From positions 62,001-126,000 of the forward strand of contig JAPJBO010000028.1 of assembly GCA_030068145.1 (NCBI GenBank): a stretch of 64,000 bases of DNA, in the 5' to 3' direction. Below are positions 4,676 to 64,000 of this stretch, one piece after another. The translations under genes were made by a program, and so were the position numbers. The notes under the pieces were generated by a model. It was given only the letters and a program-made list of their open reading frames with translations. It made no database searches and was not told where the DNA came from. This stretch comes from Diplonema papillatum (taxonomy: Eukaryota; Euglenozoa; Diplonemea; Diplonemida; Diplonemidae). The stretch's first letter is position 1. Every line of letters starts with the position of its first letter.

Positions 4676-4719
4676 CGGATTTTGTCACTGAGCCCAAAGT
4701 TATCGGATTTAGTATCGGT

Positions 4720-21642: not shown

Positions 21643-22481
21643 TGTAATCGAGTCCCCCCTTCACCCGTCTCTACTGCAACCATATGTTTTGGTGATCCGA
21701 AGCAGGGTCAGTTAATGGTACCACGTTTGCGGCATTTTCAGTGTGCATATGCGGATCAGGGCATTAGCTTCCCATTCCAGATTCCGTCAGCTGACGGAAT
21801 TTGGAAATCCGGGCGGCTCAAAAAATAAATAAAGAAAAATGCAAAAAACGACCTTCGATGAAAAAAAGTCGTGGGGGTCCGGTGGAGGCGTGGGTTTGGC
21901 CGCTGTGCCAGGAAGCTGGCTGAAGATCAAGGGCTGGGCTGGCGGTCAGGGGCTGGGCATCGGTGGGTCGCCGCTGGGCATGGTGGGCTGGCTGGCAGAA
22001 GTGGGGCTGCCGCGGGAACTGAGCCGAGTGAGAGAGTCGAGGCTCAGAAGCAGCCCGGAGTTCTGACAGATTCTTTCCGAGTTGACACAAGTGCCTTGTT
22101 CCGTGTGATCTGGATCCGGTCTGCATTTACTCGTGCCAATGATTTACCAGCACACAGTATCTGAGGGGTGGATGAATTTGAAATGGGATGTTGGCTTCAG
22201 GAATGTGCACCCGGAGCGGAGCGAGGGTCACACAGGTGGCAAACAGTGCCACCAGTACGTTGGTCGTATGTTTGACGCGACAAACGGACTGAGAAGTGCA
22301 AACTCTTTCTCCACCTGAATGTACCGTAGGGGGGCGGAGCCCTCCGGACTCCCTTTTGGAAGGTTCGGGTGGCCTAAACAAAGGCTTCTCGGTTTCAGAG
22401 CTGGAAAAGCAAATTGGCTATCGAGACGGAATTTGGAAAACTGAGGCAAAATGAAGCTCATAGCCTGATGCAGATCTTGAT
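21643..22481. other. Intergenic, no gene seen
   Basis: The 5' side of the DEX1-like gene. Small palindromes (AATTCCGTCAGCTGACGGAATT near 21778-21800; GGTGGCAAACAGTGCCACC near 22234) are visible. Open frames are short and unsupported. Confidence 0.5.
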
Positions 22482-33644: not shown

Positions 33645-33777
33645 CGGAGTTAAAGGGCGGGGAGTGTAATATTTGATAACTGTGGTTTTATTCGTGTACA
33701 TTAGCCGTCCGTATAAACAACCATTCAACCCTTGCAATCGCCAAATAAACTGAGCACTGTCCAATCAGACTCTTGAC

Positions 33778-33816
33778 TTTTAGAGTTAAAGTTCGCTTGA
33801 AATTCCGGGGTTTTAG
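33778..33816 (-). promoter_or_regulatory. Conserved 5' motif, copy 2
   Basis: Nearly identical to 27588-27626 and in the same orientation. It lies about 135 bp upstream of the preferred RCC1-like start (33644). Confidence 0.5.
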
Positions 33817-34002
33817 GGTCTCCGTGTGACCGTTCATCAATGGGTTCTCTGAGAGCAAGAAAGGGCTATGTGGTTACGGGTTGTATATTTAGTGCACGCT
33901 TTCGTTATGGGTTATGGCTAGCCATGTCCGGGACTGTTTGTGACCGACACCAAGTACATTCCTTCGTGGAGTGTAGTCTTGGGCCCCCCACGTTCTACAA
34001 GT

Positions 34003-35022
34003 GCCCCATACCCTTCCTAAAACATCATTCTGCGTTCAAATACGCCCTCAGAAGCCTCCGGAGAGCCTTCTATGTTGTCCCAAATGCGATTTTGTGGGTT
34101 TTTAGGGGGTCCCCCCGCCTGTTGGCCGTAAACCGCCATAGAAGACACATATGCAACCTGATGCTGGGTCGCTTCTCTGTGCAAGATCCCAGCCCAAACA
34201 CACGTTTTCGGCGTTCTCTAGCACTCTCCAGGTGCATTCGACCCTCGGGCTTCGTGGTTTCTTTCGCTCACAGGTGTTCCGGGACGTGCAAAGATAAGGA
34301 GAAGGGCCTCCTGCATTGGGGACAGACCGAACTACGCCCTGCCTGTCTATACAGGCTTTGGGGTCAAATTGCACCTGCTTTGGCGCCGTATCCACCGTTT
34401 CGGGCTTCGTTTGTGCTGCTTTGGGGTCCACTAAGAACTCTGGTCCTGGCCCGAAGCCTCCGAGACCCGCTCACGGTGAAGTGGCGCCTACTGGGTCGCT
34501 TCCTCTCCAGCTTCGGCGCAAAGTCTTCACCACTGGATGCACTTTGAACGGTGAAAGTGGGCGCCAAAACCGAGCAAAGCGTCCCGCAAATCAGACCAGA
34601 GTTCTTAGTGGATCCCAAAGCAGCACAAACGAGACCAAAACGGTGCACATGGCGCCAAGGCGGCGCAATTCGACCCCAAAGCCTGTATAGACAGGCAGGG
34701 CGTGGTACGGTCTGTAGGTCCATTTGCCTTGTTTTTGCACACCCCGGAACACCTGTAAGCGAGATAATTTATGCAGTCCGAGGGTCGAATGCACCTGGAG
34801 AATGATAGAGAACGCCGAGTACGTGTGTTTAGGCCGGGATTTTGCTCCGAGGAGCGACCCAGCCTCAGGTTGCATATGTGTCTTCTATGGCGGTTTACGG
34901 CCAGCAGACGGGAGGACCCCCCAAAAACCAATAAAACCGCATTTGGGACATCATAGAAGGCTCTACGGAGGCTTCTGAGGGCATATTTGAACGTAGAATG
35001 ATGTTTTAGGAAGGGTATGGGG
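34003..35022. mobile_element. Foldback element: long inverted repeat, arms about 440 bp
   Basis: 34003-34446 is repeated in reverse complement at 34594-35022 with high identity. Matched landmarks: GCCCCATACCCTTCCTAAAA at the outer ends; GGCGGTTTACGGCC and CATATGTGTCTTCTATGG in the arms; GCCTGTATAGACAGGC within each arm; CCACTAAGAACTCTGGTC at the inner ends. The spacer is about 147 bp. No gene or target duplication seen. Open frames on both strands are mirror images and not genes. Confidence 0.9.
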
Positions 35023-35885
35023 CCTCAGTACCCGTCAGACCCTGGTGAGCTATGCGGGGATTCTTCCGCCCAAACCCCCCCCCCCCATCGACTCTATGTA
35101 TTTCTCGCAGTGTGGTGTTTGGGTTTCGCGGCACTTGCGGTGCTTCACGTGGTGCGGGCTGTTTCCGCCCTAAAATAAGGTTTTTTTTGGGTAGATTTGC
35201 AGGGTAAAACTGTTCGTTGCTCGCCACAGTTAAGGCACTCTGGGCACACTGGGAACCCGTGGTTTAGTGAGGTTATTCGTCTAATGGAGTCGTCGTTGCT
35301 GTGCGTCGTTTACAGTGCTTCTTTTTGCACCAGGGCTTATGGTGGCGTAGACTTTTGAAGAGTGGTTTCCCCACGGTTCGTCCGTCGCTGTGGCAGTAGG
35401 ACATCTCTCTCGTTTCTGCGTGGTGCTTCGCAGCGTTGTCTCTGCTTGTGACTTAGTTCTGGGTGGTTCCTTCTTGCAGTAACGTAGGTGCGTCCGTAAT
35501 CCTTGTTTTCCCTTCAGTTTGAGGCCGGTTGTTGTTGTGCGTGTGTGGCAGTGGGGACATCGTAAGTTAACTTCTGTTGGAGCTCTCGCCGCCAGCACTG
35601 ACAAACAGGAGTTCGAATTCGCGAGGACATGCAGACAGCATTGATTGCTTGACTATTGCAAGAGTTCGGATGTCTATGTTTGTTGATAAGGTACTCGACT
35701 GGAGAACGGGAACAGAATGGAAAGCACACAGCTTCAAGGCCTGTTCCAGTTCGGTGCTAGAAAGAGAAATGGGTATCGCAATTGGCTACCACAAATCCAT
35801 TGCATGTCGCATTACACTATTTTTGAGTCTCATGTTTAGACTGTGCATAAATCATGCAAGTTCAAGAACACATGCGTATCGTGAT
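35023..35885. other. Intergenic, no gene seen
   Basis: A C12-13 run near 35078-35090 and short unsupported frames only. Confidence 0.5.
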
Positions 35886-36749
35886 TTAGCCCAGCTCAAA
35901 TGAAGTGTTTCCAAAAACTCTCGATCTATCGAGTACTGGAACTGAGCCTTTGTACATTCGAACACATGCAAAGGATGGTTCGAGCGCAAACTTTCTCGCA
36001 AGCTGAACAGCCGCCTTGTTTTCTGCGGGGACATCGATGCTATAGGTACTCTCAGGCGGGATGTGTCGCAGTGCTGCAACAACAAGCTGCTCTGCGATAG
36101 CAGCATTATCGGCAAAGAGCGGCTGAAAGCGATATCCTACGTCAGCAGGGCGCAGCACACAGTACCCGACAAGCTCATCCGTCTGTAGAGACACAGCAGC
36201 TAGAGCTATTGCCTCCGGTTGCGCTACCCAGCATTTTAGAAATTGTTCGCGGCTCGCGAGAACAAGCTGAGAGTCGTAGCGCAGAACATTCGCAAAAGGT
36301 ACGCAGTCTATCCTCTTGATTGCATACATGTTTGCGCACGGGTTCTGTTCCTGCTCAGGAATGCACACCGAGCCGGAGTACCTGTCTGTGACAAAGCTCT
36401 CTACAAACCCGCTCTTTTGGTACGTGGGGACTTGCTCGCGAACTGCATCGAGTGCCAATGTCCTGCCCTGAACGCATTCCAACGCTTGTTTCCAAAGCTG
36501 CAGGCCAAACCCTTTGCCCCTGTGTTCGGGCAAGCAGATATAATACCCGATGAACGCGTGGTTTTCGCCGAACTTCACGGCCGACACACTGCACACGAGT
36601 TTTCCGTGAAGTTCGCCAACCAGAAACCCTGTCCGATCGGCTTCATAGAACTGCTTTGCATCGTGCTTGCCGGGGTTCCATCCTTCCTGACGCGCCCATT
36701 CGACGATTGTGCTCACCTCTGCTTCTGTCGCCGTCCGAACGACGAGCAT
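35886..36749 (-). CDS. GNAT N-acetyltransferase with C-terminal Acetyltransf_18-like domain
   Basis: 287 residues from the ATG at 36749 (MLVVRTATEAEV, the usual GNAT start); the frame is open upstream but without ATG. The N-terminal GNAT fold has the acetyl-CoA loop motif in LPEHRGKGFGLQLW (R-x-x-G-x-G/A) and a following YQKSGF, as in beta-6/alpha-4. The second half (VGYCVLRPADVGYRFQPLFADN... YSIDVPAENKAAVQLARKF) matches the second domain of the bacterial YitH-type two-domain acetyltransferases. Substrate unknown. The compact, intronless, bacterial-like architecture is compatible with old lateral transfer, which is not shown by base composition here. Confidence 0.8.
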   Translation of the reverse strand: MLVVRTATEAEVSTIVEWARQEGWNPGKHDAKQFYEADRTGFLVGELHGKLVCSVSAVKFGENHAFIGYYICLPEHRGKGFGLQLWKQALECVQGRTLALDAVREQVPTYQKSGFVESFVTDRYSGSVCIPEQEQNPCANMYAIKRIDCVPFANVLRYDSQLVLASREQFLKCWVAQPEAIALAAVSLQTDELVGYCVLRPADVGYRFQPLFADNAAIAEQLVVAALRHIPPESTYSIDVPAENKAAVQLARKFALEPSFACVRMYKGSVPVLDRSRVFGNTSFELG

Positions 36750-37168
36750 ATTTATCAGATATGTAAAGGCTAGGGTTGTCCAAACTGTGTTCAACAATTT
36801 TAGCCTTCTTGACTATAACGCGATGCTGATGGATGAAAACCTGCGTGAGCCAAAGGGAGAGTATTGGTGATCAAAGAATTGCGTAGTTTTAAGGTCACGT
36901 CCGGAGAAAGGGCTTCGCAACTACGTCTGTGAGCATGGCTTGAAAAAGCGACGCCGCAGTGGACTACTTGTTGCATAGGTGAGGGTACGTGTATGGAGAA
37001 GGTATGTTCTAGGCGTGTCACCGGGCGGTAAGCTGACACGCAAATTGCAAGAAGTTGCAAATGAGGCGTTCACATTATCCACGCTGGACGGTAAGTCATT
37101 TGGCTCCGTCTCAGCGATGAAAGCGCAGGCCGGCACGCGAGTGAATCGCGTTTTCAGCGGAATGGGCA

Positions 37169-39058
37169 TCACGTTGTCTGTGCTTCTCTGCTCGTGTTCA
37201 TTGCAGGCAGTATACACTCATGAGACGTGTACGTAGGTAGAGGTCTCGCTGCACCCGACGTGACAAGGTCGTTCCAGAATCTCTTCTTGTCGTTGGCGAC
37301 GTCTTCACGAGCGCTGCGCTTCCGCTCTCCGAGATTAATGAGGTTGCGGGCATTGACGTTGTGGATCCTCTGCGCCTCCAGTTTTTCGGCGCTCCTCGAC
37401 AGCTTTTCAGTACGGTGTTCCTGCTCAAAAGATAGCTTCAACATGCAGTCTACCGCGAAGGCATCGGTTGCTGCCAGAGCACGCGCCCAACCTTCTTTTC
37501 TTCGTAGCTCGCAAAACCTTCTCCGAGAGTCCTCTGCAACACGACGACAGTGCTCTTTCGCCCGTGTACGACCCCGTGCTGATTCACTTTTGGGCGGCGC
37601 CGTTAAAAACTCTCCGGTACTCGAGATCATGGGGGGAAGCCGTTTGGAAGTGCTCCACTCAGAGGGACTGTCCACCAAGCATTTCATCCTCGATTTCGGT
37701 TTCGGCCGACTCTGCTTCCCTTGCCGCGCCGTCCGCCGAAGCTGCTCGAAGGCCCGCCGGCACAACAGGCCTTCGCTCTTTTTCTGCAGACGCTGCGCTG
37801 AGTCATCCAAAGCAGACCGCCTTTGAGCCACAGCACAGAAGGCGAACCACCTCCAGAAGTACCGGTTGCCCAATCGCAGAAGCAGAGTTTTGCACATGTT
37901 GGCAGCGCGCCGGCAGCGGGAGCGACCCTTGCTGCCGTCACGTTCTTTCCAAGTCACACGCAGCATAAGCGTAAAAAATGTTGCCTTCGCCAGGTACCGG
38001 TCGCCGATGGCTCGAATGCACTGCAGCACCTCCCAGCGATAATCAGCATCCGCGACAATATCGACGCAATTCACAGCCCACAGCCGTCCTCGCAGCACCA
38101 GAAGCAGCTCTTCACGCAGTTCAGGAGACACAGGCCGCCTCCTGAGCTTGACGTCTCCGAGCATGCGGCCTGCTACACTGAGTCCCCTCACTTTGGATCC
38201 GAGCTGTGTTCTTAAAACGTACACTGCCAGCTTCAAGCTGGCGCTGCGTTGCTGTGCACAGTTTGGAATCGGATGCAGATATTCGTCGGCCATGCATATC
38301 ACCTTTCCGTCCAACAGCTTCAGCGTACTGAACCCGTGGTGGCGACGGATCACCTTGGCAAGCATGCCGGTCGCTCGTACTGGGTGCGTTATTCGAACGC
38401 GGTTGAACGTGACCCGGTTTCGCTGCGAGTGCCGCCGGTAGACTCGTTGAATAGTAACAGCCGCCGACCGGGCATCGGCAGCCATATTAGTGCCGCTCTC
38501 AGCTCTGCCCCTCTCTATCTGTTCTCGAACAAGGTGGGAAGTTCGCGGATCCAACTGCAAGGAAGGCAGGTACGCAGCCGCAAAGCTGAGAGCAAAACGG
38601 GCGGCCATCCCTTGCCCCACCCGTTGAAGCTTCCTCGCTGCCTCCCTGTGTTCCACTCGCATTCTACCTCCAGCAAGGCTCTCGTGTCCGGGCACCTTGT
38701 CACCAACTGAAGCCGCTGCTGCACGTGCTTCCATCAGCATCCGTGGACACTTGATACATGCGTGCCGCATGCTCTTCCAAATGTCAGTTCTCTCGAACAA
38801 CTCGCTGGTCGTCAAGGCGCTACGTTGCTGACGTTCAATACGAAAGAGCAAACTGTCACGCCCATGGGGAATCGCGTCGACGTCTTTTTTCGGAGCCTCG
38901 CGCACGTCGTCATTCGGCACGTGTAAAGGCTTCGTATTTTCAGCGTGTTTACGGTCGTTTCTGCAATTTTTTTGCTTTGCTGAAAAAGCACAACGCATTC
39001 TCCGATTTCCTATGATCATGTCAGCACACGTACGAAAGCGTAGGAGACTCCTTGCCAT
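37169..39058 (-). CDS. Unknown 629-residue basic protein with IQ-like motif
   Basis: Single exon from an ATG at 39058. Very Arg/Lys-rich and mostly helical. One calmodulin-binding-type IQ motif is visible (AAVTIQRVYRRHSQRNR, about residue 200). Other aromatic/basic helices (RYFWRWFAFCAV, LCRRAFEQLRRTA) resemble IQ or Sfi1/centrin-binding repeats. No catalytic domain recognised. Such proteins are common in flagellar and basal-body structures, but that is inference. The C-terminal 150 residues look coiled-coil (EQEHRTEKLSRSAEKLEAQR). Confidence 0.7.
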   Translation of the reverse strand: MARSLLRFRTCADMIIGNRRMRCAFSAKQKNCRNDRKHAENTKPLHVPNDDVREAPKKDVDAIPHGRDSLLFRIERQQRSALTTSELFERTDIWKSMRHACIKCPRMLMEARAAAASVGDKVPGHESLAGGRMRVEHREAARKLQRVGQGMAARFALSFAAAYLPSLQLDPRTSHLVREQIERGRAESGTNMAADARSAAVTIQRVYRRHSQRNRVTFNRVRITHPVRATGMLAKVIRRHHGFSTLKLLDGKVICMADEYLHPIPNCAQQRSASLKLAVYVLRTQLGSKVRGLSVAGRMLGDVKLRRRPVSPELREELLLVLRGRLWAVNCVDIVADADYRWEVLQCIRAIGDRYLAKATFFTLMLRVTWKERDGSKGRSRCRRAANMCKTLLLRLGNRYFWRWFAFCAVAQRRSALDDSAQRLQKKSEGLLCRRAFEQLRRTARQGKQSRPKPKSRMKCLVDSPSEWSTSKRLPPMISSTGEFLTAPPKSESARGRTRAKEHCRRVAEDSRRRFCELRRKEGWARALAATDAFAVDCMLKLSFEQEHRTEKLSRSAEKLEAQRIHNVNARNLINLGERKRSAREDVANDKKRFWNDLVTSGAARPLPTYTSHECILPAMNTSREAQTT

Positions 39059-39744
39059 CCTTCAGTCACTCGACGTCGGCGGCAAAAGGACACTTGGGAA
39101 CAGCACACATGCCGGCAGCTTGAGCCATGTGGCATGCGCTAACAGATAGGCAACCCTTGCTCTGGAAACATAGCTGCCAGCTCTGCACTAGGAACGCCTT
39201 AAGCGCATTTCCGACTTCGAAAAGACACAGCGTAGCGCACACCTCGTATCATTGCGCCGCAGAACTCCGTATGGGTTCCATGTTTTTGGTCTGGCCTTGG
39301 CACGGGCTGACATTCTATGGTTTCGCCGATCGAACCCCCGGGACGGTCCGCTGTCAATCTTTACGCGGCCTGTGAGTGGAGATTAATGAAATGACAAAGG
39401 GTGAGCGGACAGCAAAAAGCTGTAGTCTCAGACAGAAGTCAGACTTTTCACGATGTGCAAAGCAGAAGCCCCTGGAGGACTTGCTTCCCAGTCTTCGTAG
39501 GTGTACGCGAACAGCTACTTGATATTTGAACAAGAATTGGTTCAGCACATACTATTGTTGACGTTCTGCTCCAAACGGTGTTTCAGTGTTAAGAACCGCG
39601 CCGCGTTGACCACGTCGAGCGCCTCAATAAGCTCAGCCTGTGGAAGGTATTTATTTGCATGAGCCTACGACAAGATTCCGAGGAAGCTGCTTCGAGCCTT
39701 TTTACGAGGCAGACCACGACCACACAACTCGCACACGCACACAC

Positions 39745-40227
39745 CTTTTCTTGGCTTTGATACGAGTCCGCCGGCAGAGAATGCGTCTGCGGCGTTTTGT
39801 CTGCTTCTCTCAGAGCTTTTCGCTTGCAGAAGCGAATAGAGACTTTGTTGTCGCGCATCCGATTCAAGATTACGCGGAATTGTCGGAATTCGTACGACAC
39901 CAACTCCATTCGGTCGTCTTCTTCTGCGTGTGAGAGTGACAAGGCATCCATCACAAATCTCTTGTGGGCTCTCAGCAACTGCTCCTGAACACGTGTTGCA
40001 GCGAGAAGCATCTCCTCGTGATCTTTCTTCTCAACGGACAGACTGTGCTGTAGACGTTCGTACACCCGTTCTCGCTCTCTAACCTCGCTCTGCTCTACAT
40101 GGCCGCGCGCTACGTGCTGGGCTGAGCACAGAAGCACGCGCACTGCCTTCTGAAACTCGGCATACTTCTCGGCACTATGTTTTTCCCTTCGAAGAAAGTA
40201 TAAGTAATCGACGTACTTGTTTTCCAT
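39745..40227 (-). CDS. Coiled-coil protein, 5' exon(s) of an incomplete model
   Basis: From the ATG at 40227 (MENKYVDYLYFL) a charged helical product runs for about 161 codons to a donor GAAAAG|GTGTGTG. Beyond it the frame decays to Cys/Val-rich noise, so an intron is likely. The 3' exon(s), expected between 39100 and 39600, are not resolved. The frame is also open upstream to a CAG acceptor near 40270, so an upstream exon is possible. No domain recognised. Confidence 0.5.
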
Positions 40228-41247
40228 CTCAGTCAGCGGCTCATCTTCGCTCGTGTTTCTTTTTGATCTCCTGCAAATGGGCACCAATCAGAGATCACTT
40301 GTCAAGAAGCCCATTCTGGGAGTTGACGCTCGAGCCGAGCACGACCCTGACGGAAGTTGCTGTTCACCAAAGCTAATCACGACCCGATCCGATGGGTCCA
40401 GATACGGCACGGTCCGATTGAACAACCGAAGGTACGAGGGACGAGAAACGGGAGTTCCTTACCCCTTATTGCTGTTCGAATGCGCTACCCGATGGGCTCG
40501 CTGTTCCCCCTCCAGGGCCTCCACCGTTCCTCATTTAGACAATTCTGCTGTCTAAGCTAGGAAGAACCGGTATCAAGCGTGAACGCGTGGCGGCCGCAAG
40601 CCAGTTTCCCCGGCTATTGCATATGTTTGACGCATATGTTTGCGCTTCTCGGCTAGATGTAGTTTGTATGGAAAAACGGATGCTCGGAAGTTCAAAGCTT
40701 GGTTGTCGAACGGTTGGGCGAGATGCGATGACTGAGGAACATGAAAACAGTGAATGTGACGAGCTCTGGGGGACGAGGCCCGCGGCCAGCACACACAAGA
40801 CAACGCGTGGATGTAACCACGGGACGGATAGGAAACAGGAAATCCACGTTCCGCGGTTCGGAGTGCAAAGAAATGCACCGTCGAAAGGTGCTCTCCCGAG
40901 GACTCTCGTCAATGGCTAAACCACTGGAACAAAGTTGCGGGCAACTTGGAGAGCGAGAAGGAGAGGAAAGGTACACGAGAAAAATGGGCAAACGTGCTCT
41001 CGGACGAGCACCCAGCCCTTTGAGCCCAAAGCGCTGTTTCAACGTTGCTTCGTTTTCTTGGTTTGTTGACGGCTCCGAAAGCAAAAGTCCATTGCTGTGT
41101 ACTCGCAACTGGAATATGACACGGTATGTTGTGGTTTGCCCACCGTTGCACTTGCAATGTAGAACGAACGTTCATTCAGAAAATTTGCTTCTCGGTGGCT
41201 AGGGAGCTAGAGAGGAGAAGGAATAAGTATCGGGCTGCTGCTTTGAG

Positions 41248-41526
41248 GCTGGCACTACAAGTGTGTGGGCCTTTGAAGCATGGATGATGCCTCTCGCGCT
41301 GCTCCCCTTGAGGTTCCTGGCTCATGCCAAAGCGCCACCGCCCGGGTTAAGGGGTTGCGACATCAGGCGTGGGCCAGGGCCAGGGAGGCTGTTCGGAGGG
41401 GTCACCACCCACCGTTCGCGGGCTTTGTTACTTCACTGCACCCCGCTCTCCCCGGCCTTCGTCATTCCGGGGTTCCACGGCCATCCCCCCCGCGTGGGGA
41501 ATGGACGGCTGGCACTATAAGTGTGG
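41248..41526. repeat. GC-rich insert between 19-bp direct repeats
   Basis: GGCTGGCACTACAAGTGTG (41248-41266) recurs with one change at 41508-41526, around 241 bp of clearly more GC-rich DNA (CCCGGG, CCCCCCCGCG). The size and flanking repeats fit a retroposed fragment with target duplication. No intact coding sequence. Confidence 0.6.
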
Positions 41527-41567
41527 CTTGGACGACGGACGTAGCTGGGATGTACCGTGAAACGGCT

Positions 41568-43217
41568 CTATTCTCGGGGTTGCTGCGAAGAAGCGACTAG
41601 TTGAAGGAGCGCCGCATCGCTGCGGTGAATGTAGACGTCGGCTGAGCGACTCCTCTTTCGCTTGCGGTGCAGCGTGAGGCGCCTGTCCTTTGTATCAAGC
41701 ACAGACGACACCACCGCGGCAGCAATTTCGCCGGCCGGTGCTTCGCTTGAAGAAACCCCGCTTTCGTACGCTCCATCGTCGCTGTCCTGTGTTAGTATTT
41801 TCGTCAATCTTCGCCGAAACAGTTGGTGACGTTCTTTTTGAATCTCTTGTACGAGAACAACCAAAAGCATCCGCGTCAACAGTGTTAGTCCCTTATTTTG
41901 GAGGTGGTCACAAGGGAAGTCATGATTGCAATTCGGTACTGGCTTGTAAGATCCAAGGGTCTTCCAGCATGAGAGAAAAGCAAGGACTCCATACTTCTTC
42001 CTGCTGCGGGCAGTGCAGGATTTGCGCCTTCCAGAAGTCGGGGTCAAGATCTGCAGTCTGCCTGACGACTTCCTGTTGATGTTCGGTCGAGCTTGACAAC
42101 CTCAAAGCATGGTACGATGCGTACCGTCGTCACAGTTTCACTGAGGGAGATGCACGAGGAAAGTCGATTGGAGTTTGGGTTAATTAATGAATGCAAGAAT
42201 CTGTGGCGATAATCTGCATCGATAAGAGAACTTCACACAGCCGTCAAGTTTTACACCATGCCCACATCCCCCGGTTGCTGGCACTCGCAAGAAATGGCAT
42301 GTACTGTTGTTAACCTTGCTCGAACCGACGTTTTCGATTTTTTCGGCGTTCTAAAGTGCTGCAGTGTTCTCTGTTGAAAAGACCGTTTGCGCCCTGACAA
42401 CAGAGCCAACAACGTACGAAGACGGGGTTGCAGCTCAATCGACAGTTTCAGCAGAATCCACCTCCTTCACCCCAGCATTCAGAGCAGCAACACTTCTCCA
42501 CGGACATACATCATGGTAATAACCTTCCTCTGTTCCATGGAAATAATCTTCTATCTGACACAGAAAGTACATTTTTAACGCAACGTTGGCATACCCTCCG
42601 CCAATAATTGGGGTCTAAAGGTTGCGGGTCTTCCTGCTTCTTTCTCTTCCGACTTCGCGTCCGCTCGAAATCCTTGAAAAAAACTGTTTTCAGCATCGCG
42701 TCGTCGCTTTGTAGGAGTGCAACAACCTGTTTGACGTGTTTGTGCGAATTCACACCAAGCTCGCGGTCTAAATTACAACTCAGCTGTAAAATATTTGGCA
42801 GGGGCCGACACTCAAAGACCGTGAGAAAGAGCCTCAACAGAAAAGGTGTACCTCTTCAATGCACGTGTCGTTGTAGGAGTGCAGCCATATCCTCCATTGC
42901 TGTAGGCGCTTGCTGAAGTCACGCTTGGAGCCCGTTCGCCCAGGGTGGGGTGGCTGCATAGTTCCGTGCGGTGGCGGCTTGTTGACAGCAACATATGACA
43001 GGTAATTCGTATAAGCCGGAGACGACCAGCCCAACAACATTTGGCGAACGCCGTACTTGACACGGCTGGCGTTGCTTCCGTCCCCGACAGCGCACCATTC
43101 GTTCGTGATTTGTTCGCCTATGGATTGCCAAGGCTGCTGAACCCTGTTCGGTCTGGGCAGGCCATCTTCTGTTTCTTGCTCCCCAAGGTCCATCTGAAAT
43201 GTGTGAACATTTTGCAA
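41568..43217 (-). CDS. Unknown 4-exon gene, about 302 residues
   Basis: Exons 42852-43217, 42595-42783, 41995-42072, 41568-41843; all introns GT-AG and phase 0. The last acceptor (CAAGAG|ATT) is weak. A D-P-x-(Y/F)-W motif occurs at the end of exon 2 (LDPNYWRR) and again in exon 3 (LDPDFWKAQ). There is a basic stretch (ERTRSRKRKKQED) and a C-terminal HRKRKRSRS, suggesting nuclear location. No family recognised. The reading frame across the four exons shows continuous helical, charged sequence, which supports a real gene. Confidence 0.6.
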
Positions 43218-43761
43218 AACTGCAGAGGGCAGAACCGATGAGATTCGCTCTTCCGTATTTTGCGGGAGGATTCACTCTTTGAACGCACCGTTCTCACTCA
43301 AACTTGACTATTGTGGTACAAAGCTGTTCAGACGGGATTCGGGGGAGGTTCGTCAGGCGCGACAACTATTCCGTGAAAGAAATGAAGCAGGACTCTAAGG
43401 GTTAGGGGTAAATGTCAAAAACGAAGACAACGCGGGTTAAGAAAGCTAGAAAAGCGGTGGTTGTTTGTGATCTATAAATTAGCGGAAAATACATGCACTC
43501 TCTTATGATAGAAGGCGTTCTGCGGAAGCAGATGCCGCACAGAAGTGAGTACGTATTGAACCACGGGCAGTGTGAGTCTCATTCGATGAGACGGGCAGAA
43601 CTATTGATTCGTGCCATGCGTGTGGCTCGAACCTTTGAGCCTGTGTAGACATTTGATGAAATCATCCGTTGGTCGGAGATAGGGGGAAACATTGTAAGGC
43701 GGCTTTTTTTTTCATCGGCTTCGCTCGATACAGTGACAGCAAATTGCTATTCGACAGTCCA

Positions 43762-46082
43762 TCAAAAAGCTTTTCCGTCTTCTATTGTTGCAAGCTCCAG
43801 CTGCTTTTTGTAGTACTCGTACTTCGGGTCAGACGTGTTCCTCTTCAGCACATAAATAACCGGTCCGAGGCACAACTCAAAGTGTTTTCTGTTTATTCGG
43901 GCAGTCCGGACGTCTGTTTTGGCGCGCACATCGGCCACGCACGTGTGATTGTTCAGAAATTCCAACTCGCCGAAGTGGCCGCCTGCCTGGAACTCGCACA
44001 CAAGGCTCGGGTTGCCCGAAGAATCGCGGCCTATGACCTCGCACGTACCAGAAATCACCAGGAACATCCACTCGCCGGGGTCCCCGTGGCGAATGATGTA
44101 ATCGCCGGCCAGCCACTCGTCTGTTGACAAAGCATCCGCTAGCTGCATCGTTTCGTAAGGCGAAAGAGTTGAAAGAAATCCGACGTTGGCTAGATACCCT
44201 TCGTACTCACTCCGCCGCCTCACGTTACTCTGGATGACAATGTTCGTATAGGTGACCCTGTCGAGCGTCCACGTCACACAGTCTTCACTTTCCACCTCAA
44301 CTGTCGCCACACACGGGGTATCATACATTAATTCCAACTCACCGAAGACCGACTTCTCTGCTTTGCTGGCCACGTGCACACCTTTTTTCGACACGCTACA
44401 AACGCCGCTGGCAATAATGTACAGCTTGTCGCCATGCTCACCTTCCTGCAGGGGTTTCTCTCCCTTTTTCATCTTGCGTTGGACCATTGCTCCAACAAGA
44501 AGTTTCAGTGTATCTCTGTCAAAGTAGCTGAAAAGGACTATCTCCTTCAGTAAATCCCAAAGGAGATTCTCCTGTGTGTGTGTGTGTGTGTGTGTGGGTG
44601 CTTTGAAAAGTTCATAGCTTCTGGGTAGTGTGACGCGAAGTATTAGTCCACTTGTCACTTTCACCATTCGAATATGAGTTTCCACGCTGCGTTAGGGTTC
44701 TGTGACTCCTCTCCGAAGGGTGGGTGGGGCGGGATCCTTTGGGAACGGATAGGTCACTTCTTCATCCATTCAACATCTGTTTTCAATCTTGGCGGTATCT
44801 GCGCGGGGTTTCCGACCCCGTCGCAACACATTCCACCCGAGGATGTGGCAAGCTCTCTCTATGTGAGAGCTTGGTCTGACTAGCTGTTCCGAACTTTTGG
44901 TGGAGGCACCCATCATGGTTGGCAGTCGCGCGTGTGCACGAGCGCGTCAACTTCTGTCGGGTGAAGCAAGTGTCAAAATCCACATACATCTTCTGCAGTC
45001 TTCGGGTAGAAAGGCGGCTTGAAGGCTTTCGCGGTCTCAGCGTTCGTTGGAGCACCCAGGACCTGTTGCAGTGTTCAGGCAGTGAAGACCAGCCTACACG
45101 AGCCAAGTTTAAGTATGACTTCAGCTTTGTCTTTTTCTATCCTGGGACTAGGCAAGTCTTCATTGCATTTACGCCACATACCGTCTTTTTTCGAACACCG
45201 CCGCCGAAGCCGCCAAGATCGGGTACCTTCGCTTTAGGAGGAGCATATTTCACATGACCGAATCCTTCTTCGCCTTCGTCGGCGAATGCTTTCTCTTCGA
45301 ACGGATCGTCATTGTTGTGCTTTTCCCACGTGGCCTGTATGATGTTTGTTTTGACTTGTGACGACAAGGACGTAAAGCTGACCTAACACCGAAGCACCCA
45401 AGCAAGCAAATGGCTGTAGAATCTGTGATTTCGGTCGCTTCGTATGAGACCCCCACTGCGTTAATCATGCACCACACCTCTAAGTTCTTCTCGCACTGCT
45501 TCGCTATATGACGCACAAGGTCAGTATCAATCCGCGTATCTTCCAGCTGGATGTTGACGATCTGTTGTTCGGGTGGTGTCAGTTGCCGCGAGGGTAAATC
45601 AGCAGAACACGTTCTGGCGACACGTGGCACCAACAAGTGCACCTACTAGAGTCTTAGAGCCTGTTGTGTAAAAATAGAGAGAAACCCCGAACCTTCGGAT
45701 TCTTGTTCACCAGCCCAAGCAGCTTTCGGCCAGCAAAGTTGGACAACGGGTTGCTAGACAAGTCGAGCGCAGTGATGCATGGATGGCTCTCGCAGACTTC
45801 CACAACCCTGTCCACGACTTCGTTGCCTTTAATGCTATCCGGAGACAGATCCGAGTTGTAGATGTTCTGCTCGGCAAACGAAACTTTGCGGAAGTTCGGA
45901 GCTGCAGAAACGACGTCGAGCAGTGCCATTAGCCCGCGGTTGCCGACATACGTTGCGTCTAAGTCGACCTCTTCCAGGTCGTCCAAATTGTCTCTCTTCA
46001 GGATCTTTGCGATGGACGAGTTTGGCTTTTTCATTCCCCGATTACGACATGCGGTCGCAAACATGTCGGAAGCGGACGGCAT
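43762..46082 (-). CDS. LRR-fused PKA regulatory subunit (kinetoplastid-type PKAR)
   Basis: Five exons: 45693-46082, 45478-45642, 45182-45382, 44988-45062, 43762-44571; every junction is GT-AG and phase 0; 546 residues. Residues 1-185 are leucine-rich/tropomodulin-like repeats (LEEVDLDATYVGNRGLMALL; ITALDLSSNPLSNFAGRKLL; VNIQLEDTRIDTDLV). An acidic linker leads to RKKTV (about 249-253), placed like the R-x-x-S/T autoinhibitor site, then FYPKTAED. Two cyclic-nucleotide-binding domains follow. Cassette A is FGELELMYDTPCVATV (Glu355 kept, Cys364 where cAMP sensors have Arg); cassette B is FGELEFLNNHTCVADV (Glu479 kept, Cys488). There is no Met between exon 1 and the middle of exon 5, so the LRR and cNMP parts cannot be separate genes. 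Kinetoplastid PKAR shares the LRR fusion and loss of cAMP binding. The first donor (GTTCGG) is atypical. A (TG)n tract forms the last polypyrimidine region. Confidence 0.85.
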
Positions 46083-46414
46083 CGCGCTCCCCCCAGGTCA
46101 ACCACACCGGTCCCCCTTTCCCGTAACTATTTGTGCGATGTCTAAAACTCAGGTAGTCAGTCTGTGACCTCCAACTGACTTTCACACAGCTTCTACTTTG
46201 TTTTCACGAATAAGATCGTCTACAAGCGATGCACAGATACGTCTGTATTTGCAGCAGAAGGCAAACTGATAACAGGAAACAGCTATCAACAGCAAGCTTG
46301 TCTAAAAACAATCTAAAGTGCACAAGGAAGGCTAGGTGGCGGCGAATGCTGGCCAAATGACTAAGTGGCAATGTTGCCAGACTGCTTGAGTTGCAAAAAC
46401 ATTGTGCAGCAGCG

Positions 46415-49400
46415 CTAAGAGGTCTTGTTGTCGATCCGGGTTTTGAGCTTGTCAAGGACCGAAGCGACGGAAGCAGTCCCTTTGCGTATGTCTTCAAGCG
46501 TGGATTTGTTGGAAGACGATGAAGCGCTAGAGCCCCTGCGCATGGCACCGTTTGTCTGCGGTCTCATAAACGAGACACAACCAATGGAACGCGCTGATTC
46601 AAGTTCGTGCGACCCATGATGCGAGTGAGACGGGCGATGCGAGCCAAAAGCCATGGCTGCTTTGACAAGATCCGCAGAGCTAGCGCTCGGATAGTTGCCT
46701 AGCAGACCCATTGGAACCGTGGAAAACCCCCCCTGATTCGACATGGCCGAAGAAGCGGGGCTGACGGACTCGACAGGCGACCGAATATTGTTTCTGATAG
46801 AAAGAACTTCGCCGCCTGGCGTGCTCAATGGTTTTGACTCAGGGCTCGTGGCGTTGGCCCGTACCTGCACCATTCTGTCTGCAATGACTTCATCGAGTTG
46901 AACTGCTAGCGCACTGTCGCCCGCGAGGAGGGCGGCCTCCTTCTCCCGCTGCAAGTCGACGACCTCATTGGGGATGCTGGCCGCAATGCGCTCAATGTAT
47001 TCGAACTGCCGGGCCTTCGCAGCATCCCTCCGTCGTTCACGAGGCACGCCGTTGCATTCGCGCATGATTCTACGCAGGCGTTCGACCAGTATTCTCTTTG
47101 AGCCGTAAGCGTCGACGTCGTACTCGTCAGCGAGCTCGTGCAACCTGCTGATGGGCTGCGCCATTAGCGCTTCGAATTCAGGATCCTCCGGTTCCGACAA
47201 GTCTGTGGCAGGATGAACCGGGTCACGAGTGGCCCATCCTTTTTTAGAATTAGAGCTCGACGGTGTAGCTGGAGTACTGCCGTCGACGTCCCCATGAACT
47301 CGGAGCGAAGGCTCAACAGGGCTCGCAGACGGTGTGCACTGCGATTGCGAGTGCAATTGTAACGGCCGCTGCACCCGTGTGTCTGTCTCTGTTTCTCTAC
47401 AAGCAACTTCTTCTTCAATCTCTCGGTGACCTTCAGACGTCGGACCGCATATCTCTGACGGCTCGCTCTGCTGGAACTCTAAAACAACAGATTCAAACTC
47501 AGCCCTCATCGTATCGCCTCGAGCCTGGGTGTGTGGCACCGACGCGATGCTGTCATAACCTCGCGCGACGCCTCTATCGGGCAGCCGTTCCTGGTACTGC
47601 TGCAGCGGGGTTGTGTTTCGCTGTTCGGACCCGACAGCTTCAGATCTGAGCTGCCCTGTGCTGTCACCGCTGGCTGATATCTGCGCGTCACCCGAGGACG
47701 CACAAATGACGGGAACCGCGTCTGATGTCCAAGCTTGCGGAGGAAACAGCCGCGGTGTAGGTCGTTCGTCACCGTCCTCGCGAGACAAGGAAACGCACGA
47801 GGGGTTAGGCGTCTGATGACCGTCGGCGGTGTTAACTGCGATCGGGCACCTTCGTTGGTCCTCATTGTTGCTGAGAAGGTGTCGTGGACTGTGAAGATAG
47901 CTTTCCCGAGGTAGATCGTCAATTTGCACGGCGGGGAGCTGTGTGCTTGTGAAGTCATTGTCGCCGGGCGCGTCGGACGCGATGCGCTGACTTGAAAGCT
48001 CTTTGGACAGGTCAACGGTGACAAGTTTTGTTCCTGGGCTGTAATAATGCTTCTGCCCGGTTCGCAGGTCGCGGACGACAATCCATTCCCCGGCCCTCAA
48101 CACTTGCCGCACGGCGGGGTCTGTCTCATCGTCGTCGGACTCGTAGGTTTCTGCTTCCTGTTCCTCGACAGCGGAACATTCATACACGGCGTTCGGCCTC
48201 GAGACGGGGGAGTTTGAAGGAGAAATTGTGACCGTCGAAGGCTCTGACGTCCGCTCCGCAGCGCATGCTGCTAGAACAGCCGCATTCAGGTTTCTCACGA
48301 CGCGTTGCGTCGCTCGATGGTAGTAAAACACCTCCCCTCGTCGGTCTTCGCAGGCGCGCCAGTCTTCGTGTTCCCCTTGCAAAGTTTCCCACGAGACGCT
48401 GTGCTCGCCCTTCTTCTTCTCCGATGCATCGCCTTCGCTCTCGTCCTCCGCACAGCAACCGTCAATTTCTCGCAGCTCGGCCGCAGTCACGCGGCATAAC
48501 CTATCCAGCACCACAACTTCAATCTCACCGCTCCTAAACACCGCGACCACCAAACACGGTTTCCAAGTACCCCCCACAATGCACTCTGCCTGCTCTCCTG
48601 GAGTCCATGCACTTGCATCTTTAATACAAGGGAGTCGACCTTCGATCAATTCCTCGCGTGTCAGCTCCAAGCGCCGGCTATCCGCTTCCATTGCCCGCAT
48701 TTCGGATGCCGGCAAGAAAGTGCGCACCATGCCTCCAATAGCGTCGACAAGCAGCCGCACGGGCCGATCGGGGATTTGCTCCCAAAGGGACAAGGCGGCT
48801 GGCCCATCGTTTCTGGCGAAGATGAAGAGGCGGCCTTTCAGCGAGCTCAGCCCGCGGCCATCGCTGCAGGCGTTGACGCACTGGGAAGTATCGGACGAAA
48901 CGCTTGCAAAGGCGCCCGTCCTGAAATAGTCCTCCAGGTGGCTTTTCGTAATAGCATTGGCCATCCCTGACGTCGGTGTCGGGGCTGCTTCGTCCGACGA
49001 AGGCAGCGAAATGTCGCGGTAGTCTTCCCGCTTCACGAATATCTGTGACAGTTTGAAGATACGCCAGGGCGGACAAAGAGCAAACAAGCCCGTGCTTGCA
49101 GAATTGTCCGAACAGGATGCATGTAACAATTCTCGGCACTTCTGCATGTGAACTCGCAGTCCGCTGACACCTTCTGGATGAAGTAGACCAACTACGGTCT
49201 TCTGCGACTGCCTTGAGAAATGAAAGATGCATCAAACAATCTTGTGGCCAAGATGACGGAGAAACACACACCTCAGCCGTTTGGGAGTCGTAGTTGTCCT
49301 TTGCGAGCAGAGCGAACAGGTTGTAGAGTACAGAAACCGCGTATTGAGGCATGAGCTGAGCGTTGGTTGGAAGACTTAATTTCTTGAGTCTGAAAAAGCC

Positions 49401-60689: not shown

Positions 60690-62246
60690 CTACGCACAAA
60701 TAGCGGTGTATTGCCGCCGGAGAATGAGGCTGCAGTCGACACCGGAGGAGCTGAAAGCACGCGCAACGCGCTCTATCGACTGTACGTCGCCAACCGTTAA
60801 CAAAAGACTAAACATGCGCTCGGCTAGTCGCAATGACGAGTGCTTCTTGCGGGATACGGCCACCTCAAACACATCAACTGCAAGACGAACCACCGAAGCA
60901 AAGCACGTTTCCTGCCTTTCTTCCTCTCGTTCCAGCAGCTTCTCACAAAGCGTGACCAGCATTGTGTAGGTGATCTCATCGCTGTCGTACTGGTACTTTT
61001 CCACCGCTAGCTGCATTGTGTTCAAAAAACCTGGCAGGTCGCAAGCCTCTTTGTAGGCGTTGAGGAGGATGCTAAAAGTCCGATCCGTAGGAGTGTGCCC
61101 GGCAGCTGAGAGTGTATTAAATGTTTTCCAACAGCTCGCAATATCGCCCTGTCTGCTGGAGATTGACATGACTGCATTGAATACGGTCGTGTTAAGGCAC
61201 TCAGGGAAAGCTGCGGCCACCAGCAGCGCGCTTCGAACGTCTTCGCTCACCGCCACCACCGTCGCTACGCCACCTGACGATATCTCGATTCCTGTTTGGG
61301 GAACTACATTCACTACGTAAAAACAAAAGCCCCCCCGTGTGACTACAGAGCCTTTGCGACGAAACCAACGAAAAAGAACCCGGACGTGCCCAACACGATT
61401 ACTCATATGCGCAGCACACTTCCGAACTGACCCGTACACATTATCACTACTACGCCGTGCAGTGATCTTCGAAAGGCGACATGAGATCACCCAGGACCAA
61501 TGAAAAGCCTGCCGTACGGCTCAGAGTAGCGCTCTCCGTGAAGGGGCTGTCGAATGCTCTGGGAATAGCACACCTTCGTCCTTCATGAGGCTCAGGACTT
61601 TCATCGCCGCGCTGGCGCTGCGCCATTTCGTGCACACTTGGAGGACAGCCGCATAAGTTTCGCGGTCGGGAGAGAAGCCGGCTCGCAGCATGTTGCTGTA
61701 GATACGCGCGACGCGCGACCAGTCTCGAGTAAACCCGACACGCCCCCGATCGGCTTCGAACTGGATCAGCCGGTTGAACAGCTGGCCTTCACCCCGAACG
61801 CGCCGTGCCTGCATCTCCGACAGTAAAGTATCGACGGCACGCCACCGTTTCAACCCGCCCAAGAATCGGATGAAAACAATATAAGAGTAGCTACCCACTG
61901 CCTCGTCGGGCAGCCCGTTCCACAGCGTTGTTACCGCTGCCATTGCGTTCATTCCTCGTGCGTAGTTGACGCAGCCCTTGGTGATGCGGTACTCCTCTAT
62001 CTTTCTGTTCAACTGGTGTGCAGACCACTTGTCCGCATCGGGCGTAATCGACGAGCCATCGCTGCCACTTTTAATCTTCTCTTCGCGCAGTGCGCAAAAG
62101 ATCGGTCTTCTTCTTTTGGGGGAGGTTGTTGCCGTGTTGTCGTGACGTTCGCGCGTCAGCGCTTCTACCTGGTGAGGTGAGTGAGCAGGATGAAGACTAC
62201 GACTGTCCTTGCGATGGAGTGGAGCGGTGCCTTTCTCCCCCATCAT
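60690..62246 (-). CDS. Pentatricopeptide repeat (PPR) protein, two exons
   Basis: Exons 61574-62246 and 60690-61311/61312, joined in phase 1 across a 261-nt intron (donor GTGTGC, acceptor TTTACGTAG); about 430 residues. PPR-type helical pairs are visible: SYIVFIRFLGGLKRWRAVDT, QLFNRLIQFEADRGRV, VARIYSNMLRAGFSPDRETY, then AAVLQVCTKWRSASAAMKVL in exon 1; VFNAVMSISSRQGDIASCWK, TFSILLNAYKEACDLPGFLN and EITYTMLVTLCEKLL in exon 2. PPR proteins bind organellar RNA, usually mitochondrial. No clear presequence at the start chosen here (62246), so an upstream exon may carry it. RNA target cannot be read. Confidence 0.82.
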
Positions 62247-64000
62247 CGACCATCAACGAGCTGCCTCTCCCACTGGGTATTCGACTCCGTGACGCTTTGG
62301 AACCCGATCAGTCTGCAATGGTGGCAAAAGACGCTCACGAGAACAAATCAGTCTTTCGTTCCTAAGGTGATGACTCACGGTTCACTCTGAAACGAGCAAT
62401 ATGGACAACACTCGCAGGTCTTTCCCCAGGGCTGAAACACGCAAGCCTATTCTTGACGCCGGACTTAATGTCGTAAAATGAGAACGGCCGTCCACACGAG
62501 CGGGAAAAAGAGTAGTTTCGTCAGTCGGTCTTCGGGCACGGCACCCCAACCATGCACAGGAGATGCTCAACTCACGGGTGCAAAGCGTTGGAAAGATCCA
62601 CAGAACGCACATTTCACAATGAGTGACGAGAAGGGGGACTAGAAGAAGCGGCAAGGACAACGGGCTGTCGCCAGCCGGATTCTCCCTTTAACTGCGGCGA
62701 GTAGAGCGGCACGTGCCAAAGATGCCCGAGCTAGTCAGACAAGGCCGGGGTGAGAAGCATTGACCAAGAACAGACAGGTTGTCCAGTAGTCTGCGACACT
62801 GTCCTGTTTCATGACTTCCAAAACTAGTTTGGCTTTTGCTTGTCGACGAGTCTTCGAGCAGCCACAGCCAGGCGATACGTCGCTTGTAAGCAGTGATGCC
62901 CCAAAAAGGGAGACGAGAACAGGCACAGAACCCCTCTTCGGAGAGAAATCTTCCGTTGAGATTCCGCTTTTTCGTTCAAACGAATTCTTTTTCCGCAGAC
63001 TGCCCTCGCCGTGCCTGTGGAAGGTCTACCGACTGCTCCCGTAAGCCCACCTCTATCACGCCCTAGTCATGGCCAAACCCTTTCAAGCCGGGGCGCTAAC
63101 TAGATGCTGACAAACCCGAGCATTCCCGGCTCCTCGGTTAAAAGGAACGGCAACGAGCGGGGTGGCGTGCCTGCACTAATTAACACCCTCGGGGCTCTGG
63201 AGCCTGTCCAGACCAGTGCGCGGGAGGCAAACTATAACGGGAGCATGGCGGCGACGATTTGCGCGATCGCGCGGACTGCTCATGAGGCATAACCCCGTGG
63301 AGGTCATTGTGAGCGACTGATGCTCGGACTGCATACTGGTCCCCATCTTGTTCTAACTCTTTAAGCGTCACTCTCTGAAAACCAGCAGTTGATGTGCGAT
63401 GAAGACGTCGCAAAAGTTTTGTTGGCAAGCCGGCGTGCCGGCGTGCTGCTTTCGAAACGGTGAACGAGAGGGGAGGGAGACAGACGAAAGCGACTCGATG
63501 CGACTCGAGGTCGTCTACACCATGCAGTAGCACTACACAGCAGGGATGGATATGCTGTTGATACTCGACACAGTGGTTGTGAGTACTCACACACCTCCTG
63601 TGCTAGTGCTTTACACAGCAGTGCCACCGTAGCACTGCATGTAGGTACGTAGTGGCAGGGAGTCAGTGCTCGGTCACGACGGGATATCTGCTGTGTAGTG
63701 TTCAGAACGGGCAGCCACGGTAGTGAGGCAGCGACTCCGGCCAACACCTCAGAGCGGGGCTTCATCGCCCCGCAACCTCTTTGTGACTCGGCCTCTGTGG
63801 GGGTCACTTCATAACTTCGGCCGACGATGTGTGTGAGCGAAAACTAACCCAACCGTGGGGCGAGACCCCCGGTCGGGGTACACCCAAAAAAAGGATATGC
63901 CATGATGACGGCCATAATTGCGGCTGCCGGAAGCCCGGACGCCGCGCGCGGCCTTTCAAACGCTCACCTTGACGAGAGAGTCGAAATCCTCTCGCTTTTT
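62247..64000. other. No supported gene to window end
   Basis: Short frames only. The minus-strand frame 63361-63807 is Ser/Ala/Cys/Arg-rich without domain, and a 7-bp AGCACTGC-type repeat region lies around 63600-63640. Confidence 0.45.

Follow-up and report, generated by a model that had tools for sequence, protein, structure and literature searches.

The locus at 43762-46082 in Diplonema papillatum raises the question of whether a diplonemid gene joins leucine-rich repeats (LRR) to a regulatory subunit of protein kinase A (PKAR), and which ligand such a subunit would bind when both arginines that hold the cAMP phosphate are replaced by cysteine. The window analysed, i.e. the whole stretch of 64,000 nt (C28:62001-126000), carries the gene on its minus strand (46082-43762). 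This gene, referred to as window PKAR, has five exons, all in phase 0, with lengths of 390, 84, 153, 75 and 810 nt, every one divisible by 3, and a product of 503 aa. It begins with an ATG at 46082 and ends with a TGA finishing at 43762, and its splice sites are GT donors and CAG acceptors. The order of domains is RNI-like LRR, RKKTV inhibitor motif, CNB-A, CNB-B and C-terminal lid helix, with the following parts.

45693..46082, minus strand: exon 1, residues 1-130, start codon and most of the RNI-like LRR
45562..45692, minus strand: intron 1, 131 nt, GTTCGG...AACAACAG
45478..45561, minus strand: exon 2, residues 131-158, in which the LRR part ends
45335..45477, minus strand: intron 2, 143 nt
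45182..45334, minus strand: exon 3, residues 159-209, acidic linker followed by the RKKT of the inhibitor motif
45182..45193, minus strand: RKKT of the substrate-like motif RKKTV, split by intron 3 between T209 and V210
45063..45181, minus strand: intron 3, 119 nt, GTATG...CAACAG
44988..45062, minus strand: exon 4, V210 to D234, linker before CNB-A
44572..44987, minus strand: intron 4, 416 nt, 3' end formed by a (CA)n run and CAG, in-frame ATG (exon 5 frame) at 44667
43762..44571, minus strand: exon 5, residues 235-503, CNB-A, CNB-B, alpha-D lid and stop
44305..44343, minus strand: ribose-binding cassette A, GELELMYDTPCVA; E314, C321 and V322 correspond to E311, T318 and V319 of T. brucei (Tb)
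43933..43971, minus strand: ribose-binding cassette B, GELEFLNNHTCVA; E438, C445 and V446 correspond to Tb E435, N442 and V443
43789..43827, minus strand: alpha-D lid segment, PKYEYYKKQLELA, with P483, cap Y485, Y487 and Y488 (role according to PMC10959531)

The initial annotation had proposed that five phase-0 exons link the LRR to two cNMP domains, and this is borne out by the exon lengths, the GT/CAG sites and homology over the junctions. Exons 3, 4 and 5 can be aligned to the PKARs of T. cruzi and T. brucei from residue 205 onwards, the sole gap lying inside exon 5. Exons 1, 2 and 3 align without gaps at both junctions to L019, a single-frame paralogue in the same genome (30% identity over 189 aa for the N-terminal part; blastp, 1e-22). 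Because a single frame of 552 codons runs through L019 from the LRR over the inhibitor motif to both CNBs, the fusion does not depend on predicted splicing alone. The four introns (131, 143, 119 and 416 nt) all have lengths of the form 3n+2, so that retention of any of them would shift the frame. The further claim that no start codon lies between the parts holds for the spliced product, since exons 2-4 contain no Met and thus provide no start between LRR and CNB-A, but not for intron 4: the exon 5 frame is open upstream into this intron and reaches the ATG at 44667. A CNB-only product from this ATG is conceivable and would be devoid of RKKTV. It is disfavoured as the main product because homology spans exons 3-5 (trypanosome chains) and exons 1-3 (L019). 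The (CA)n run (44572-44600) lies right at the acceptor of intron 4; its length may differ among strains and may affect splicing. An AlphaFold prediction of exon 5 alone reached a pLDDT of 35 and was discarded.

The introns resemble those of diplonemids as far as described in PMC12621601, with GTATG donors and A+C-rich tracts before CAG. There, GTATG donors are given for three species, CAG ends for four Diplonemidae and CA-rich motifs for five of six species, with assemblies of N50 ≤11.4 kb. In window PKAR, GTATG is found at two of the four donors. The mean of the A+C-rich tracts before its acceptors is reached by none of 20000 random sets of four minus-strand CAG sites (7/20000 if intron 4 is omitted). 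According to PMC7859406, introns are exceedingly rare in kinetoplastids.

The window contains 45 stop-to-stop frames with at least 180 aa. Of these, 43 were scanned, leaving out the minus-strand repeat frames 19896-20900 and 20036-21178. On the minus strand, Pfam matches (E≤0.001) occur in 9 of 25 frames, counting the PKAR in its spliced form; on the plus strand, none of the 18 frames has one. The matches of two minus-strand frames, 3140-4684 and 61521-62252, do not reach the curated cut-offs. Downstream of the PKAR gene, 42834-43271 (minus) encodes a histone RNA hairpin-binding (SLBP) domain (PF15247, 1e-7). The longest plus-strand frame (16503-18467, 654 codons) is without a Pfam match and has abundant Cys/His pairs towards its middle. 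A minus-strand frame of 743 codons (19429-21660) holds a long repeat of the QANGQPWQQQ type with variable unit order and tandem periods of up to 132 bases. At 60690-62252 (minus), two PPR-repeat frames adjoin with one stop between them and perhaps form one gene with an intron. A scan of the window for Rfam families (gathering score) and tRNAs found none.

Both CNB domains are recognised by Pfam (PF00027, 7.5e-31, two stretches). The same search with the whole protein returned no LRR family at E≤1 within the first 204 residues, and exon 1 alone matches LRR_6 at 14.7 bits, below the cut-off of 23.4. A phmmer search of the PDB with residues 1-202 yielded 23 chains at E≤10, headed by FAP101 (E=3e-4) and followed by GALA, ribonuclease inhibitor and other LRR chains. 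Weaker matches among the 23 include non-LRR chains, namely three PUM/PUF and one BrxR, and another chain labelled tubulin. The FAP101, DRC5 and Rab-family chains are LRR proteins. Judged by these matches, the N-terminus is a genuine LRR of RNI-like kind with a weak profile signal; the designation as tropomodulin-like found no support. A dimerisation/docking (D/D) family is absent among the Pfam matches of window PKAR at E≤1, and on sequence grounds the RNI-like LRR is assigned to the place of the D/D domain, as in PKAR1. The inhibitor motif RKKTV (residues 206-210) had been correctly spotted but described as pseudosubstrate-like. It is substrate-like because it has a phosphorylatable Thr, as does the T. 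brucei motif RRTTV (PMC6440977).

The pocket residues are numbered here according to T. brucei PKAR, with roles taken from PMC10959531. The consensus given in PMC10354285 for the phosphate-binding cassette of canonical subunits, F-G-E-[LIV]-A-L-[LIMV]-x(3)-[PV]-R-[ANQV]-A, is broken in both sites of window PKAR by Ala->Glu and Arg->Cys. As originally reported, Cys occupies both canonical Arg positions (C321 and C445). Both cassettes contain GELE, not GELA, with Val directly after the Cys. In the four canonical PDB chains, positions 311/318/319 are occupied by A, R, A, and so are 435/442/443. Fourteen of the 16 cassette, cap and lid positions are identical in window PKAR and both trypanosomes (E311, V319, A320, Y370, R413, H430, E435, N438, H440, V443, P480, Y482, Y484 and Y485). 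The exceptions are 318 and 442, which are V and T in T. cruzi, T and N in T. brucei, and C and C in window PKAR. Positions 311, 319, 430, 435, 440 and 443 are diagnostic, setting window PKAR and the trypanosomes apart from all four canonical chains. Less diagnostic are A320, present in all seven chains, and 370, 413, 438 and 485, which match some canonical chains; at 480-484 the canonical chains end or have a gap. The capping Tyr at both sites and the lid PKYEYY are kept. Together with GELE and the Val, they make up the nucleoside pocket described in PMC10959531. Pocket A is not identical to the trypanosome one, because window PKAR is without the trypanosome insertion carrying Cys278. Lys488, which contacts Val443 in T. 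brucei (PMC10959531), is replaced by Gln in window PKAR and by Val in T. cruzi.

These residues shift the emphasis of the initial annotation. The conserved Glu it had pointed out is indeed kept but is ordinary; the second Glu (GELE), the Val, the capping tyrosines and the lid had been missed. The weight placed on Arg->Cys as a ligand-changing substitution was not sustained, since this position is tolerant in T. brucei mutants and Glu311/435 are decisive (PMC10959531). In that study positions 318/442 are termed non-conserved, and wild-type T. brucei PKAR has an inosine EC50 of 18 nM, which becomes 28 nM if these positions are Val and 36 nM if they are Arg, but 28 uM upon Glu311/435 -> Ala, a 1556-fold loss (PMC10959531). 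As Val or Arg at 318/442 barely alters inosine activation, the choice of Cys probably has little effect. The loss of Arg probably helps to explain a loss of cAMP binding, and the gained Glu would explain the nucleoside.

The kinship of window PKAR points in the same direction as its pockets. In a phmmer search of the PDB, T. cruzi PKAR (302 bits), T. brucei PKAR (289) and an engineered T. brucei mutant (283) rank highest, followed by P. falciparum (132), mammalian RII-beta (130) and Euglena (111.5). Identity amounts to 49% and 48% with the two trypanosome PKARs and to 31-33% with the four canonical ones. The initial annotation had named a tree placing the protein with canonical subunits as grounds for rejection. 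In the seven-row ML tree (window PKAR, T. brucei, T. cruzi, and the four canonical chains RI-alpha, RII-beta, P. falciparum and T. gondii PKAR), it instead groups with the two trypanosomes apart from the canonical chains (100/100). A 16-row tree including paralogues retains window PKAR with the trypanosomes (91/89). An 18-row tree gives no settled order among window PKAR, trypanosomes and paralogues, so 'orthologue' is less sure than 'same kind'; the trees were built without Leishmania, Bodo or PKAR3 sequences. Window PKAR, T. brucei and T. cruzi have in common the C-terminal lid and an insertion of one residue in CNB-A, the insertion being absent in the four canonical chains. Together with the four introns, the 100/100 grouping upholds the suggestion that the kinetoplastid LRR-PKAR kind occurs in an intron-bearing relative. 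The likely ligand, as the initial annotation also proposed, is a nucleoside and not cAMP. The window gene is accordingly classified as a PKAR1-type subunit, predicted to be nucleoside-activated, outside the intron-poor kinetoplastids.

The genome (271,365,524 bases, 2910 contigs) contains at least 125 matches to PF00027, and 60 stretches (L009-L068) were read. Matches left out are on C584, C2637, C2160, C2722, C1248, C1186, C296, C247, C141, C597, C40 and C1100 and at C321:90382. Among those on C584 are 23 cNMP-binding matches in a row (33,709-48,113) in very long frames of up to 2450 codons. By tblastn (1e-5), 47 of the 60 stretches matched the seven reference PKARs. For thirteen of the 60 (L019, L021, L045, L051, L031, L054, L033, L064, L049, L065, L056, L020 and L055), the top-scoring reference was window PKAR or a trypanosome chain; for the other 34 matching stretches it was a canonical chain, mostly with weak scores, and of these L044 alone was examined as a PKAR. 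Cys is found at the site-A position in 4/6 copies with Glu311 and at the site-B position in 5/10 copies with Glu435, window PKAR included in both counts. As a residue choice, Cys is common among the copies of this genome and not special to the window gene.

Site B is the more uniform of the two sites, with the nucleoside Glu in 10/10 and Val443 in 9/10 of the aligned nucleoside-type copies. Site A ranges from nucleoside-type (window PKAR) through degenerate to cyclic-nucleotide-type (L019). A site-B tree separates five canonical from twelve nucleoside-type rows (100/100), although its bootstrap had not settled and four rows were long. The site-A tree is poorly resolved, with window PKAR, L054 and the trypanosomes together (88/77) and L019 unplaced. 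L021 (C1017:49800-55500) has three nucleoside-type double-CNB units in tandem, two apparently in one frame of 862 codons, and L031 has at least two site-B copies. Four PKAR1-like copies (L064, L049, L065 and L055) have degenerate site-B cassettes (GYIEF, GFLEF, GHREC). The Y-x-Y-Y lid is present in three of them, the match of L055 stopping before the lid, and they are possible ligand-free anchors. A canonical subunit is also found (L044/L069 on C662), with site A GELGLMYGTPRAATI, a site B starting with GELALL and the inhibitor motif RRQAV. It groups with RI, RII and apicomplexan PKARs (98/99). Its site B breaks off after GELALL at an apparent intron, and the remainder did not turn up in the 4.9 kb that follow.

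The paralogue L019 (C839, about 81,400-83,060; 3558-1903 of its stretch) encodes LRR, RRVS, CNB-A and CNB-B. Its site A, FGELALMYNTPRTATV (also given as GELALMYNTPRTA and GELALMYNTPRTATV), keeps Ala and Arg and is of cyclic-nucleotide type, and its site B, FGELEFLNNHKAVADV (also given as GELEFLNNHKAVA and GELEFLNNHKAVADV), is of nucleoside type with a YxYY lid. In the 16-row tree L019 joins window PKAR and the trypanosomes (84/89). A partial, altered copy of its CNB-B lies directly downstream (1748-1461). The same mixed pattern was engineered in TbPKAR mutant 6 (GELALMYQTPRAA in A, GELEFLNNHANVA in B), whose crystal structure contains cAMP at site A and inosine at site B (PMC10959531). L019 differs from this mutant in being natural and in having Thr after the Arg; window PKAR itself is not mixed. 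A Thr after the cassette Arg suggests cGMP, as is known from work on PKG. From its sequence, L019 looks like a mixed cyclic-nucleotide and nucleoside sensor. The copies are most simply read as a single conversion of site B, site A having converted at a later time or repeatedly, with a reversion of site A in L019 as the alternative. It is a tentative proposal, held at somewhat less than an even chance, that the switch of PKA to nucleosides predates kinetoplastids and spread in a large diplonemid family, site B first, and that L019 would then be a natural two-ligand PKA acting as an AND gate. If true, this gate in a living cell would require that site B be filled by a nucleoside and site A by a cyclic nucleotide.

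For window PKAR itself, it is considered likely that RKKTV blocks the kinase, that nucleosides in both CNB pockets release it and that the LRR localises the complex, as expected of a PKAR1-type subunit. Gene structure, kinship and residue pattern come from the sequence, while ligand, release and the role of the LRR are carried over from trypanosome biochemistry. In the resting state, RKKTV would sit in the cleft of the kinase's catalytic subunit. The ligands of both CNB pockets would be purine nucleosides and not cyclic nucleotides, with Glu314 and Glu438 gripping the ribose hydroxyls in the space that canonical subunits use for the Arg-bound phosphate. The base would be stacked by Tyr373 and Tyr485, and Tyr487/488 of the alpha-D lid would close off site B. 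Binding of nucleoside would set the active kinase free. The LRR, replacing the dimerisation/docking domain, would probably localise the complex, and Cys321 and Cys445 would occupy a tolerant position.

Other readings of the gene were weighed against this one. The LRR could tether the catalytic subunit to an anchor insensitive to nucleosides, like Leishmania PKAR3-PKAC3, with pockets that no longer gate the kinase. PKAR3 does bind nucleoside analogues, yet one of them failed to dissociate its complex (PMC11006142), and site A is degenerate in the sister genes L045, L051 and L031. This is nevertheless unlikely for window PKAR, which keeps both pockets, both caps, the lid and RKKTV, while PKAR3 has Ser for the conserved inhibitor Arg (PMC11006142). 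Nucleoside binding could also be gated by the paired pocket cysteines, acting as a switch of redox, metal or covalent nature, given that Cys recurs at the same position in several paralogues. The new Arg318 of T. brucei mutant 6 pushes Cys278 aside, so these positions are close (PMC10959531), and window PKAR is without Cys278 but has Cys at 318. However, Cys is dispensable, as relatives with otherwise similar sites have Thr, Val, Asn or Ala instead, and such a switch is regarded as quite improbable.

A response to cyclic nucleotides through unusual cassettes has a very slight probability. The fold can take a phosphate, as Arg at 318/442 on the Glu background (mutant 4) leads to a weak cIMP response in T. 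brucei (PMC10959531), but window PKAR has neither Arg, both blocking Glu are present and the trees place it away from canonical subunits. Hardly credible, too, is a wrong join of two adjoining genes, one with the LRR and one with the CNBs. The intron 4 ATG in frame with exon 5 would fit a separate gene, but homology crosses all four junctions, L019 unites LRR, RRVS and both CNBs, and this architecture is known from PKAR1 (PMC11006142). The nucleoside-activated PKAR1-type subunit is therefore retained as the preferred reading.

Nucleoside-regulated PKA has hitherto been described for trypanosomatid pathogens. The fusion to an LRR is a known feature of PKAR1 (PMC11006142; PMC6440977), whose origin was proposed to lie early in the evolution of Kinetoplastidae (PMC11006142). 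The free-living Bodo saltans has PKAR1, PKAR3 and a canonical PKAR (PMC11006142). In the PMC open literature, no paper on PKAR in diplonemids was found, nor, among the titles and abstract openings listed there, a report of PKAR1 outside kinetoplastids, only work on trypanosomes and Leishmania. Relatives in viral contig and genome contig collections were not confirmed. A four-intron PKAR1-type gene in a diplonemid would move the origin before the kinetoplastid split and further from parasitism. With canonical, mixed and fully nucleoside-type subunits in one genome, the order of the ligand switch becomes testable, and the copies form a natural series of sequences from which the residues that determine ligand choice in CNB domains can be read. 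Cyclic AMP effectors restricted to Euglenozoa have been linked to the absence of cAMP-dependent PKA, according to PMC10354285. This view is qualified by the canonical L044 and by the title of the Euglena structure 6RSX, which is called cAMP-dependent.

Among known systems, the trypanosomatid PKAR1 proteins TbPKAR and TcPKAR (PDB 6FLO, 6FTF, 6HYI) are closest, with the same LRR N-terminus as described in PMC6440977 and PMC11006142. They share with window PKAR the R-x-x-T-V motif, GELE...V in both cassettes, the capping Tyr and the P-x-Y-x-Y-Y lid. Window PKAR differs from them in its Cys for Thr/Val and Asn/Thr, the missing Cys278 insertion, its four spliceosomal introns and the further paralogues in its host. 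Leishmania PKAR3 is a regulatory subunit refractory to cyclic nucleotides that binds nucleoside analogues (PMC11006142), in line with what is predicted for window PKAR. As described in PMC11006142, PKAR3 is set apart by a long N-terminus without LRR and the absence of the inhibitor Arg, in contrast to the LRR and intact RKKTV of window PKAR. Canonical PKARs (RI-alpha, RII-beta, P. falciparum, T. gondii) also have two CNBs and an inhibitor segment, but GELA...RA cassettes and no such lid. Euglena 6RSX, by bit scores alone, sides with the canonical kind (180 against P. falciparum PKAR, to which T. brucei PKAR scores 117, and 111.5 against window PKAR). Compared with these systems, the window gene fits well into a known kind, now seen in a new lineage; the surprise for specialists lies in the rest of the genome, L019 above all.
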